A model generated the notes under the pieces. It saw nothing but the letters and a program-made list of their open reading frames with translations, was not told the origin of the DNA and did not search any database. This document shows positions 1,101 to 36,504 of a DNA stretch of 38,061 bases, in pieces. The position numbers and the translations under genes were made by a program. Every line of letters begins with the position of its first letter. Within the stretch, counting starts at the first letter, position 1. Source of the DNA: Mycobacterium sp. (GTDB lineage: Bacteria > Actinomycetota > Actinomycetes > Mycobacteriales > Mycobacteriaceae); NCBI GenBank assembly GCA_025965975.1, contig JAOPVX010000449.1, forward strand, positions 1 to 38,061. The letters run 5' to 3'.

Positions 1101-1229
1101 GCCAGCTCCGTCAAGCCTCCGTGGCCGGATCCCGGCCAGCTCCGTCAAGCCTCCGTGGCCGGATCCTGGCCAGCTCCGTCAAGCCTCCGTGGCTGGATCC
1201 CGGCCAGCTCCGTCAAGCCTCCGTGGCTA
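1101..1229. repeat. 34-bp tandem repeat at thyX 3' end, about 3.8 copies
   Basis: The unit starts GCCAGCTCCGTCAAGCCTCC and repeats with a 34-bp period at 1101, 1135, 1169 and 1203, with only one or two substitutions between copies. Read on the thyX strand, the copy at 1203 contains the last codons of thyX (GCC ACG GAG GCT TGA). The other copies are therefore duplications of the gene's 3' end placed after the genuine stop. The array fills most of the thyX-dapA gap. Confidence 0.95.
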
Positions 1230-1965
1230 ACGGGCTGGTCGCCACCTCCGTGCCGTCTGCCAGCGTGGAGATCTCGAAGTCGGCGAAGACCTGCGGGGCG
1301 AGGTCGATGAGCCGGCGCAAACACTCGATGGCCAGCCGGCGGATTTCGACGTCGGCGTGCTCGCTGGCCCGCATCGCGATGAAATGCCGCCACGCCCGGT
1401 AGTTCCCGGTGACCACGATGCGCGTCTCGGTCGCATTGGGCAGCACGGCCCGCGCCGCCTGCCGGGCTTGCTTGCGCCGCAGCACGGCGTTGGGCTGGTC
1501 GGCGAACTTGGCCTCGAGCTTCGTCAACAACTCGGCGTATGTCGCGCGGCTGGCGTCGGCGGCGGTCGTGAAGATCTCCTGCAGTTCGGCGTCGTCCTCG
1601 ATTCCCGGTGGCACGACGACCTGGGCGTCGTGTTCGGGGACGTATCGCTGCGACAACTGCGAGTAGGAGAAATGGCGATGCCGGATCAGTTCGTGTGTGC
1701 AGGACCGCGAGATGCCGGTGATGTAGAACGACACCGTCGCGTGCTCGAGCACCGAGAAGTGGCCGACGTCGATGATGTGGCGCAGGTATCCGGCGTTGGT
1801 TGCGGTCCGAGGATTGGGCTTCGACCAGCTCTGATAGCACGCGCGGCCGGCGAACTCCACGAGCGCGGGCCCGCCGTCGGCGTCGGTGCTCCACGGCACG
1901 TCGGGCGGCGCCATGAACTCGGTCTTGGCGATCAGTTGCACGCGCAGTGGCGTGGTCTCGGCCAC
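1213..1965 (-). CDS. thyX: FAD-dependent thymidylate synthase ThyX
   Basis: ThyX makes dTMP from dUMP using methylene-tetrahydrofolate, FAD and NADPH. The ThyX signature [14 protein letters not shown] lies at residues 95-108, and [14 protein letters not shown] and the YRAWRHFI segment near the C-terminus are also present. At 250 residues it has the usual length. The GTG start is preceded by TAGGGT with a 5-nt gap, fitting a leaderless transcript. The stop codon lies inside the 34-bp repeat array, whose first copy encodes the last residues LATEA. The window also encodes the unrelated ThyA about 2.6 kb away, the dual arrangement known in mycobacteria. A divergent deaminase gene starts 115 bp upstream. 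Confidence 0.96.
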
Positions 1966-1970
1966 GGCTC

Positions 1971-2075
1971 ACCCTAACGTGGCGGCCGTTGCCGACCTTC
2001 TTTCGCTGCATCCCGCGCAAGCTTTCGCTGCATCCCGCGCAAGCGGAGTCGTCATGATTGAGGCAACGTTAGGGT
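1971..2075. promoter_or_regulatory. Divergent thyX / deaminase promoter region with inverted ACGTTAGGGT boxes
   Basis: ACCCTAACGT at 1971-1980 and its exact reverse complement ACGTTAGGGT at 2066-2075 flank the intergenic region. Each contains TAGGGT pointing outward, 5 nt before the GTG of thyX or the ATG of the deaminase. They look like matched leaderless -10 elements. Identity extends into the flanks, since both genes begin (A/G)TGGCC. Matched promoters or a shared operator would both fit. Confidence 0.55.
2001..2044. repeat. 22-bp tandem duplication between thyX and the deaminase gene
   Basis: TTTCGCTGCATCCCGCGCAA followed by GC occurs twice without a mismatch (2001-2022 and 2023-2044). 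It lies between the two outward-pointing promoters. Confidence 0.95.
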
Positions 2076-2080
2076 TGGGT

Positions 2081-33420: not shown

Positions 33421-33491
33421 ATTCGCAGCCCACGACCGTGCGCGTTCGCGAGGAATTCCCCGGTGTGTCGGCCGTAGAACGGCTCACGACA

Positions 33492-34928
33492 CTAGGTGCC
33501 GGCCACCAGCCAGTGACCGGAATAGGCACGCCAGCCGACGAACGCCAGCCTCAGCACCATGAACGTGCTCAAGCCCGACCAGATGCCGAGCAGACCCCAG
33601 CCGAACACCAGCGAGAGCCAGACCAGGGGCAGGAACCCGACCATCGCGCTGATGAGCGTGGCATTGCGCATGAACTTTGCGTCACCCGCGCCGAGCAACA
33701 CGCCGTCGAGCGCGAAAACGATTCCGGCGACGGGCAATTGGGCCACCATGAACCACCACGGCACCGCCATCGCGTCGAGCACGGAGCGGTCGTCGGTGAA
33801 CACGCTCGGGAACACCGAGGCGCCGACGGCGAAGATCCCGGCAAGCACCGCGGAGGCCAGGGTCGAGAAGATCGTCACCCGCCATGCGACGGATTTGGCG
33901 TGCGCCAGCTGTCCGGCGCCCAGCGCCGCCCCCACCAGCGACTGCGCGGCGATGGCGAGCGAATCAAGCACCAGCGCAAGGAAATTCCACAGCTGCAGCA
34001 CCACCTGGTGGGCAGCGACGGCGGCCGCGCCGAACCGGGCTGCGACGGCGCCGGCCGACACGAAGCAGGCCTGGAACGCCACCGTGCGCAGCAACAGATC
34101 GCGACCCATGACGACCTGGGCACGCAGCACCGCCGGTTGGATGCGCACCGGCACCCGCTCGGCGAGCAGCGAGCGCAGGAACAGCAGCGCCGCCACCCAC
34201 TGCCCCGCCAGGTTGGCGACCGCCGAGCCGGCGAGTTCCAGCCTCGGCATGCCCAGCCAGCCGTACACCAGCAGTGGACACAGCACCGCGGACACCGCGA
34301 ACCCCGCACCGACGTAGCGCAGCGGCCGTCCGGTGTCCTGCACCCCGCGCATCCAGCCGTTTCCGGCCGCCGAGACCAGGATCGCCGGCGTGCCGACGAT
34401 CGCGATGCGGACCCACGGCAACGCTGCTCCCGCGATGTCTCCGCCGGCGGCCAATGCCGACACCAGCGGCACCGCGACGGCCTCGACCATCACGACGATC
34501 AGCGCGCCAAGGCCAAGCGCCAGCCAGGTCGCCTGCACCCCTTCGCCAATGGCCGACGCCCGGTTGCCGGCCCCAAAAAAGCGGGCCGAGCGTGCGGTGG
34601 TGCCGTAGGACAGGAAGGTCATCTGCGAACTGAGCGTGCTCAGGATCAGCCCGCCGATGGCCAGGCCGGCCAGCGGCATTGCGCCCAACCGTCCGACGAC
34701 GGCGATGTCGAAAAGCAGATAGATCGGCTCGGCGGCAAGCACCCCGAGCGCCGGAAAGGCCAACGCGGCGATGCGCCTGCCGGCGGCCGAGGCGACGGGC
34801 GGATCGCCTTGCGCTCCACTGTTCCTCGCGCCGCTGGCGGCCCGAGGCCCTTGCGCTCCACTGTTCCTCGCGCCGTTGGCGGCCCGAGGCCCAGAGCGGC
34901 CATCGCCATCTGGCGCCGGCTCAGCCAA
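33492..34928 (-). CDS. dinF: MATE-family transporter DinF
   Basis: This is a 478-residue MATE exporter, a cation-coupled multidrug antiporter, with about 12 helices. It runs from [42 protein letters not shown] to [27 protein letters not shown]. Rv2836c has the same place next to nrnA. The only start codon in frame before the first helix is a TTG at 34928, overlapping the nrnA stop. The resulting ~65-residue N-terminus is Ala/Gly/Arg-rich and holds a perfectly in-frame 14-residue tandem duplication (34808-34891). No LexA box is visible, so despite the name SOS control is not supported. Confidence 0.88.
34808..34891. repeat. 42-bp in-frame tandem duplication in dinF
   Basis: CTTGCGCTCCACTGTTCCTC and the following 22 bp occur at 34808 and 34850 with one mismatch. 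On the coding strand each copy gives GPRAA(N/S)GARNSGAQ near the DinF N-terminus, just after the nrnA stop. Unlike most other arrays here it is translated. Confidence 0.95.
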
Positions 34929-35922
34929 GAGCGGTATACAGCGCCTGCACCACGTCGTCAGCGGATCCGGTCGCGGAGTAGCCTGCGGCCAACCGGTGCC
35001 CGCCGCCGCCGAAGGCGCTGGCGACCGCGGCGAGGTCGTAGGACTTCGCACGCATCGACACCGACCAATGTGCGGGCTCGATCTCCTTGAACACCGCTGC
35101 CACCTCGGCCTGCTGGGTGGTGCGCACGATGTCGACGATGCTTTCGACTTCCTCAGGACGGGCGTTGGCCCATTCCTGGTGTCCGACAACGGCATATACC
35201 AGTCCGCGACCGCCGGCGGCGTCGGGAAGAAGCTGCGCGCACGACAGCACGCGCGACAGCATCGGCAGCCAGGCGAACGGGTGGGTGTCCAGCAGGGTGC
35301 GGCTGATCGAGGCGTTGTCGACGCCGAGCTCAAGGAGCCGGGCGGCCAGCCGGTGCGCGCGGGCGCTGGCCCAGCGGAAGGACCCGGTGTCGGTGGTGAG
35401 TCCGGCGTATAGGCAGTGCGCGACGCCGACGTCGATCGGCTTGCCCCATGCGTCGAGCAGCTCGGCGACAAGCATGGTGGTGGAGTCGGCCGACGGATCG
35501 ACGTAGTTGGCGGTGCCGAACAGCTGGTTGGAGGCGTGGTGGTCGATCACCAGCACCTCGCGGCCTGCGTCGGCCAGCTCACGCAGCGCACCGAGCCGGT
35601 TGACGCTCGGTATGTCGACGGTGACGACCAGGTCGGGGTCGCGGCGCATCGTCGCCGGTCCGACCAGCAGGTGGCCACCCGGCAGCGACTGCAGGGATTC
35701 GGGCAGGTCGGCGGGGGCGGCGAAACTCACCTCGACCGCCTTGCCGGTGTGGTCAAGCACCAGCGCCAACGCCAGACCGGCGCCAATCGTGTCGGCGTCG
35801 GGATAGACGTGGCAGACGACGCCGACGGTGGCGGCCGCGTCGAGCAGGTCCGCCGCCTGGCGCGCATCGACGCGCGACCCCTGCATGGGAGGGGCGTCAG
35901 TCATCTTGTCGATTGCGGTCAT
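34921..35922 (-). CDS. nrnA: DHH-family oligoribonuclease / pAp phosphatase NrnA
   Basis: NrnA is a Mn-dependent DHH/DHHA1 phosphoesterase that degrades nano-RNA and 3'-phosphoadenosine 5'-phosphate, and acts on c-di-AMP breakdown products in mycobacteria. The motifs [33 protein letters not shown] and the C-terminal [10 protein letters not shown] are intact. The ATG at 35922 (MTAID) is preferred because the M. tuberculosis protein starts similarly; it overlaps rbfA by 26 nt. An ATG at 35904 is possible. The frame gives 333 residues and ends overlapping the dinF start. Confidence 0.93.
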
Positions 35923-36403
35923 CGGTGTCCTCAGCGTCAAGCCCGTTGTCTAAGTCCCCGCTCGAACCCTCTGCCCCGTCCTTACGGTACGGGTCTTCCT
36001 CGCCCGCATGCTTGGCACCCTGTCGAACTTTCGCCAAATCCTCATCTGCGGCGCGGGCACGGGCCAGCAGCTCCTCCATGTGGGCGGCGGTGTCAGGCAC
36101 CTTGTCCAGAACAAATGACAAGGTGGGCGTGAACCGCACACCGGTGCCGGCGCCGACCTTGGTCCGCAGGGTTCCCTTTGCGCGCTCCAGCGCGGCGGCC
36201 GCGCCGGCGTAGTCGGGTTCGTCCTGCAAGGTCTCACCGCGCACCGTGTAGTACACCGTTGCGTCGTGCAGATCGCCCGTCACCTTCGTGTCCGTGATGG
36301 TCACGAAGGCCAGCGGGGGATCCTTGATCTGGAACTCGATCGCCGAGGCGACGATGGTGCCGATGCGCTTGGACAGCCGGCGTGCCCGGCCCACATCAAC
36401 CAT
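35897..36403 (-). CDS. rbfA: 30S ribosome-binding factor A
   Basis: RbfA assists 16S rRNA 5'-end maturation and small-subunit assembly. The protein has [49 protein letters not shown] and [25 protein letters not shown], and then an acidic mycobacterial tail. The ATG at 36403 gives 168 residues and starts MVDVGRARR like other mycobacterial RbfA. Its start codon and preceding bases are the original copy of the 31-bp repeat that fills the gap from infB. It is co-transcribed with infB and nrnA. Confidence 0.95.
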
Positions 36404-36504
36404 GGCGCTCGTCGCACAACCGCTCATCAACCATGGCGCCCGTCGCGCAACCGCTCATCAACCATGCCGCTCTTCGCGCAAGCGCTCATCGCGCCGACCG
36501 CTCA
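36395..36504. repeat. 31-bp tandem repeat between infB and rbfA, 3 copies plus a degenerate fourth
   Basis: Units start ATCAACCATG at 36395, 36426 and 36457, with a diverged copy near 36488. On the coding strand each carries CATGGTTGATG, a copy of the rbfA initiation region (ATGGTTGATG). Decoy start codons are therefore placed upstream of the real one. The array occupies the whole infB-rbfA gap. Confidence 0.93.

Follow-up and report, generated by a model that had tools for sequence, protein, structure and literature searches.

Why does a single 38,061-bp contig of a Mycobacterium sp. genome (JAOPVX010000449.1, assembly GCA_025965975.1) carry tandem repeats at so many of its gene boundaries? 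An initial annotation, made from the sequence alone, had listed twelve such arrays and considered their units unrelated. We analysed the whole contig (C136), hereafter the window, calling tandem arrays with Tandem Repeats Finder (TRF) and genes with a purpose-written codon-usage gene caller. The assembly to which it belongs (G000; 7.44 Mb, 449 contigs, 93.4% complete, 4.6% contaminated) was sampled to about an eighth and is fragmented, so that copy numbers may be off, and the genomes used for comparison are drafts. We consider it probable that intergenic arrays of two kinds have piled up locally in the window: stop/start minicistron elements (kind A) and local duplications (kind B). Kind A comprises the infB/rbfA array and, by its architecture, the thyA/dfrA array:

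36394-36490, minus strand: infB/rbfA array, 3.1 copies of 31 bp by TRF (junction feature 36392..36507)
4352-4575, minus strand: thyA/dfrA array, 6.8 copies of 33 bp by TRF (junction feature 4346..4576)

A dispersed 32-bp family at gene junctions

The infB/rbfA array is a member of a dispersed family. It contains one exact core, GATGAGCGCTTGCGCGAAGAG, and matches other sites in its own assembly, with a best E of 8.4e-13. The family unit consists of CGATGAGC(N)GCTTGCGCGAAGAG followed by about 10 variable nt, with a period of 32-33 bp. By eye, the core was present in exact or close form in six of the 32 intergenic arrays listed for this genome (36394 in the window, L195:9258, L196:15624, L200, L207 and L209), and its part GCTTGCGCGAAGAG occurred 57 times in the assembly, as compared with none for the reversed control. 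The initial annotation had concluded that the window does not hold a dispersed repeat family; blastn indeed revealed no sequence shared among the units of the eleven arrays, although the conclusion itself is wrong for 36394, whose family extends across the genus.

The pattern GATGAGC(N0-2)GCTTGCGCGAAGAG was found in 90 of 148 Mycobacterium genomes (our own included), in up to 53 copies, and controls gave no match. A sample of the order yielded the motif in 35 of 200 genomes, namely 15 Mycobacterium and 20 from families f2, f4, f6 and f12, and none of the eight sampled genomes that share the family of the window but lie outside its genus contained it. Among 28 genomes reached through related loci it was present in 18, including M. 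parafortuitum (38 copies), Mycobacteroides sp. LB1 (37), M. iranicum (25) and M. hodleri (24), and the count was zero for M. simulans, M. montefiorense, M. ahvazicum, M. numidiamassiliense, Mycobacterium sp. SM1, M. genavense and M. paraense, as well as for one Tsukamurella and two Streptomyces. In family f2 (loci L299 and L301; genomes G176, G201, G292 and G303) the core recurs about 82-93 bp apart, within longer units carrying an added stretch. Plasmids and phages gave no match to a 72-base two-unit query at E 0.01. A literature search by sequence string and phrase, with subscription journals outside its scope, returned no description of the 32-bp element, and the matches to sequence strings were either a string from mycobacterial interspersed repetitive units (MIRUs, reportedly described by Supply in 1997) or short substrings that we judged by title to be due to chance.

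We examined the geometry of the element in 82 groups, made up of stretches of our own genome and of loci fetched with the motif. Successive cores were spaced 32 bp apart 32 times and 33 bp 15 times, with spacings of 34 bp (six times), 30 bp (three) and 29, 64 and 66 bp (once each) making up the rest. A 32-bp unit corresponds to a mini open reading frame (mini-ORF) of 11 codons whose TGA overlaps the next ATG; the first mini-ORF had exactly 11 codons in 39 of 81 cases. In 77 of the 82 groups an ORF with the same direction and 60 or more codons ended within 60 nt of the element; in 44 of the 82 the element's own TGA served as the upstream stop, and the downstream gene was co-directional in 71. 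The overlap of the element's own ATG and TGA is largely built in, because the search pattern contains TGA after one base, whereas the upstream frame and the downstream DTGA were not part of the pattern. Mini-ORFs of up to 40 codons ended in DTGA in 52 of 68 cases, as compared with 37% of 981 gene stops, and in 59 of 113 first units the mini-ORF had 8-12 codons (exactly 11 in 49 cases) and finished in DTGA, as compared with 3.3% after shuffling.

The longest series was found in a near relative (L388, G013:C2:92400-94200), where the 32-bp unit is repeated 25.4 times with 99% match. It encodes 25 successive 11-codon ORFs, all 25 of them linked by ATGA, followed by an ORF that has at least 175 codons and continues past the end of the stretch. 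A long ORF was likewise reached by overlaps in ten of 13 further arrays.

Filled and empty sites could be compared at a junction elsewhere in the assembly (L200), where the element is missing in all seven relatives with both flanks. The empty site in relative G013 reads CCCCGATGACG (CGATGA), and the filled site consists of CCCCGATGA, the rest of three units and then CCCCGATGACC. The element is thus inserted at a DTGA stop/start overlap, in the form ATGA, at this one site compared in such detail.

In the window, the stop of infB reads TGATGAG, units beginning with ATGAGCG start at 36505, 36489, 36458 and 36427, and rbfA starts with GTG at 36394; the mini-ORFs have 15 and 20 codons, and the ATG of the last unit is in frame with rbfA. 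We compared this junction in 17 Mycobacterium relatives with both flanks (G005 lacked them); nine further rows, which belong to other families and have gaps of 107-475 nt, do not enter this count. Eight of the 17 carry no element and have gaps of 11-27 nt, three (G008, G009 and G014) carry one clear copy, and four (G002, G011, G012 and G018) show by eye traces that appear decayed. By eye, G001 contains two units of MIRU-type sequence at this place, and G015 contains another sequence.

At the thyA/dfrA junction of the window, about seven 33-bp units form a single mini-ORF of 76 codons, its ATG overlapping the thyA stop (ATGA) and its TGA overlapping the dfrA start (GTGA). This unit was found in six of the 148 genomes (our own included), at one locus each and, by sequence, at the same junction, with one to seven matching units; among 19 rows of relatives, one (M. 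iranicum, L012) carried an array. The first ATG overlaps the TGA of the thyA end, as identified by sequence, in the window and four others, and in the remaining one (L325) the array extends further upstream. A single mini-ORF (8, 20, 20, 31 and 76 codons) leads to dfrA in five of the six genomes and a chain of three does so in L325, the stop of the mini-ORF or chain overlapping the dfrA start as ATGA or GTGA in all six. The thyA/dfrA array works like the 32-bp family by architecture, and we do not file it as a member.

A kind A unit, of about 32-33 bp, thus lies at the junction of two co-directional genes and often provides the TGA of the upstream gene, overlapping its own ATG as ATGA. It encodes a mini-ORF, of 11 codons if it has 32 bp and continuing in frame through units of 33 bp, and ends at the start of the next unit or of the downstream gene, commonly with a DTGA overlap. 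From the sequences we infer that terminating ribosomes re-initiate unit after unit until they reach the downstream gene, which would make the element nearly harmless within an operon, as has been suggested for MIRUs. Tandem growth would proceed by unequal copying, with a possible role in tuning. A further proposal, which we put forward tentatively and with some doubt, is that these elements constitute a second, very small MIRU-like class: a selfish or domesticated 32-bp minicistron, present in most sampled mycobacteria and patchily elsewhere in the order, that may have been mobilised into ATGA overlaps and may expand in tandem to ribosome relays of as many as 25 minicistrons, the number of copies tuning the ratio at which the adjacent genes are expressed (infB:rbfA, thyA:dfrA).

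Position and density of the arrays, and local duplications

TRF identified arrays, each with a score of at least 76, at eleven of the twelve coordinates of the initial annotation. The twelfth, 28143, showed no tandem array by TRF down to a score of 30, nor by a second repeat search; the stretch 28143..28200 contains short aagtact/gctcgat echoes and the stop of a plus-strand ORF, followed by a terminator-like inverted repeat, GCTCGATC...GATCGAGC. Besides the two kind A arrays, TRF gave the following:

1100-1227, minus strand: thyX/dapA array, 3.8 copies of 34 bp (junction feature 1081..1227)
2000-2044, no strand assigned: divergent gap upstream of thyX, 2.0 copies of 22 bp
9456-9493, no strand assigned: divergent gap upstream of dapB, 2.0 copies of 19 bp
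11648-11691, plus strand: aldR/ald divergent promoter, 2.3 copies of 19 bp
12784-12882, plus strand: ald tail array, 2.8 copies of 35 bp
13106-13195, no strand assigned: stretch downstream of ald, 6.0 copies of 15 bp
20018-20071, minus strand: rpsO tail array, 3.0 copies of 18 bp
29249-29342, no strand assigned: divergent gap, 3.0 copies of 31 bp
34807-34892, minus strand: between an NrnA-like gene and a MATE (dinF-like) gene, 2.0 copies of 42 bp

The location of the arrays on gene boundaries, as first proposed, was confirmed. All eleven lie between genes or intrude on a gene end by no more than 27 nt, with gene overlaps of 0-27% of array length; the intergenic share of the window is 12.9%, and random placement of eleven arrays gives a product p of 1.1e-10. 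Nine of the eleven touch a called start or stop or sit within 29 nt of one, the exceptions being 9456 (48 nt away) and 13106 (296 nt).

The window is also a hot spot for arrays, in agreement with the exceptional density noted at the outset. With TRF scores of at least 70, periods of at least 14 and mostly non-coding sequence as criteria, it contains 11 arrays in 38 kb (2.89 per 10 kb), as compared with 21 in 877 kb (0.24 per 10 kb) of its own assembly, sampled as 60 stretches of which 58 were readable. The Poisson p for this difference is 4e-9, uncorrected for the fact that the initial annotation had singled out this window. Forty-six loci around ald (L005-L050) contained 11 arrays in 831 kb, and ten evenly spaced 20-kb stretches from each of two relatives contained none (G011) and five (G006). 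The hot spot is not conserved in the syntenic region of relatives, where 20 stretches from ten genomes (395 kb) contained three intergenic arrays, all in G002.

Orthologous junctions were compared for eight of the eleven arrays, which leaves the pair downstream of ald and 29249, whose two flanks were not found together in any relative; rows in this comparison are loci, and a few genomes are present twice. At the junctions compared, relatives were almost always without arrays. As the initial annotation had stated, the units at thyX, ald and rpsO duplicate the final codons of their genes together with the stop. Between thyX and dapA, four units of 33-34 bp, each beginning with TGA, add 135 nt, and the gap amounts to 154 nt in the window versus 18-19 nt in all five relative rows. 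Units 1-3 repeat the thyX tail, ATEA-stop, and unit 4 is divergent at that end; the five relatives end in ATEA (three), VTEA (one) or ATDV (one), four of the five thus sharing TEA-stop, and it is this tail part alone (ATEA- or TEA-stop) that relatives contain. The ald tail array repeats the last ald codons and stop, which form a single copy at the ald 3' end in relatives. In the rpsO tail array, the last codons and stop occur three times in 18-bp units that copy CTGCGTCGC-TGA; none of 73 relative rows contained this array, and three contained other small repeats with TRF scores of 50-56. In the aldR/ald promoter a 19-bp sequence is tandemly duplicated once, the duplication reaching almost to the ald start, and the gap is 139 nt versus a commonest value of 120 nt among 47 relative rows, none with an array, and the difference from Mycobacterium sp. 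ACS1612 (L005) is one clean extra 19-bp copy. For the ald tail, the ald promoter and the tail part of the thyX unit, the unit is therefore present once at the orthologous site in relatives. The thyX, ald and rpsO tails and the ald promoter are lineage-specific local duplications, which probably arose by replication slippage or illegitimate recombination and would persist where no reading frame is broken.

For the other five arrays (2000, 9456, 13106, 29249 and 34807), the comparison of units with relatives consisted of blastn. The gap upstream of thyX has 88 nt in the window versus 30 nt in the sole relative with both flanks, which is array-free, as is the one relative row upstream of dapB; the nrnA/dinF gap has 178 nt versus 55-148 nt in six relative rows. 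Both 19-bp copies at 9456-9493 contain TGTGGATAA, the DnaA-box consensus, which has no other exact match in the window. About 1 kb downstream of ald (12811-13852) is without a confident gene and contains the 15-bp array together with a weaker TRF array at 13284-13322 (score 57), a 20-bp duplication.

Matches to NCBIfam in the window comprised dapA, thyX, DHFR (dfrA), thyA, dapB, an Lrp-type regulator, ald, a class A beta-lactamase, a peptidase-like protein, pnp, rpsO, ribF, truB, a MATE transporter, an NrnA-like protein, rbfA and infB. We take the Lrp-type regulator next to ald to be aldR, by position. The class A beta-lactamase-like gene (15105-16001, minus strand) lies between LuxR/response-regulator-like and peptidase-like genes, and an Actino-pnp RNA (Rfam RF01688) is located upstream of pnp, at 19699-19758.

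Alternative explanations

Several observations weigh against a pile-up of these two kinds. This reading leaves the hot spot unexplained, the five arrays just described fit neither kind clearly, and the family core is present in just one of the eleven arrays (36394). Even there, the units lie 31 bp apart and are linked by TTGATG instead of proceeding in 32-bp ATGA steps; the thyA/dfrA array lacks the core altogether and shares with the family, beyond the architecture, just the letters GATGAG and GCTTGC. Across the family, the downstream gene was convergent in 11 of 82 groups and six lay inside a called gene, in calls that rest on a purpose-written caller, and three of the 13 further arrays (L391, L395 and L396) failed to reach a long ORF by overlaps. 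A chain reached any ORF of at least 50 codons in 93 of 113 cases versus 58% after shuffling, which is a weak test.

The opposite simplification, one dispersed family for all eleven arrays, was rejected: blastn with queries of two units, run against some 0.92 Mb of the assembly including the window itself, gave hits with an E of 0.01 or worse and none better.

It is unlikely that every array is an ordinary product of slippage that is tolerated between genes and purged within them, with boundary placement reflecting nothing but purifying selection. Such an origin, suggested in the initial annotation, fits the thyX, ald, rpsO and ald promoter arrays, the promoter showing one clean 19-bp copy and the local tails being likely cases; the arrays do lie outside genes, and their units, as far as the genome was sampled, are mostly private to one site. 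However, fresh local slippage does not explain the arrays at 36394 and 4352, because the former belongs to a genus-wide family and the unit of the latter is common to six of 148 genomes at the same junction. The recurrence of one 21-22 bp core at numerous junctions, across 90 of 148 genomes, refutes it for 36394, and it is further opposed by the ATGA geometry, the empty ATGA site, and the preservation of the thyA/dfrA frame and dfrA overlap in six of six genomes with one to seven matching units. The argument that slippage persists where mismatch repair is NucS-based agrees with the presence of NucS and with MutS not being found in this 93.4%-complete assembly, but we judge it weak as a cause. 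Mismatch repair, even of the MutS type, acts on loops of a few bases, and NucS is an unlikely cause because loops of 15-42 bp exceed that range.

We regard as improbable that the element is a functional regulatory site, such as a signal for RNA processing or termination or a site for a protein, with an incidental mini-ORF. The core is almost invariant between species, though the search pattern forced most of its letters, and is present in other families of the order; nevertheless, its stop/start frame relations are far above those of shuffled sequences, and the variable tail keeps unit length mostly to 32-33 bp, a regularity for which a protein site would have no need. That the contig derives from a different organism within a mixed assembly, hence its array density, is very unlikely despite the 449 contigs and 4.6% contamination, as judged from its being the sole full-length match in the assembly for ald and pnp-rpsO-ribF queries, from tetranucleotide correlations of 0.92-0.99 with other readable stretches and from family arrays on many other contigs.

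Comparison with known systems

MIRUs, with a unit length of 53 or 77 bp, are the basis of mycobacterial typing, and to our knowledge their movement and function are still open. One report describes them as apparently mobile units that insert at start codons and contain an ORF coupled at -4 nt (PMC12548453). The 32-bp element is likewise a short, dispersed and often tandem intergenic unit, with a small ORF coupled by a -4 nt overlap. It resembles MIRUs also in its dispersal at co-directional junctions (71/82 downstream, 77/82 upstream), in overlapping its neighbours by DTGA and in its insertion at ATGA; as regards mobility, what was seen of it is presence or absence from one species to another. 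The central part of our MIRU search motif was found in the MIRU292 unit, printed as 53 bp in a second report, a unit that contains the motif on the other strand (PMC7977185). The motif occurred in 41 of the 148 genomes, in several of them at intervals of 53 or 77 bp, and did not match G000. Since it is absent from G000 and the unit length differs, the element is MIRU-like yet fails two defining features: its units have 32-33 bp, not 53 or 77, and its core sequence is different. The MIRU motif (41/148) and the 32-bp element (90/148) coincide in eight genomes, a largely complementary distribution (Fisher p 2.5e-10, ignoring kinship). MIRU-type sequence, as two units recognised by eye in G001, and the 32-bp element nevertheless occupy the same infB/rbfA junction.

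Dense and seemingly unrelated tandem repeats may thus conceal a family. The 32-bp look-alike could serve as a minimal and testable model of serial termination-reinitiation and of the spread of such elements, because it offers an empty and a filled ATGA site, up to 25 serial copies and a junction, infB/rbfA, shared with MIRU-type sequence.

As in mycobacterial variable-number tandem repeats and minisatellites, the number of matching units varies between species at one junction (thyA/dfrA, 1-7); unlike in these, the geometry of the 32-bp type is tied to stop and start codons. Coupling, mentioned in the initial annotation as a possible role for copies beyond stops, proved a good hint. The ATGA overlap is of the same type as in ordinary operon pairs coupled by termination-reinitiation, from which the element differs in placing up to 25 successive 11-codon cistrons in series.

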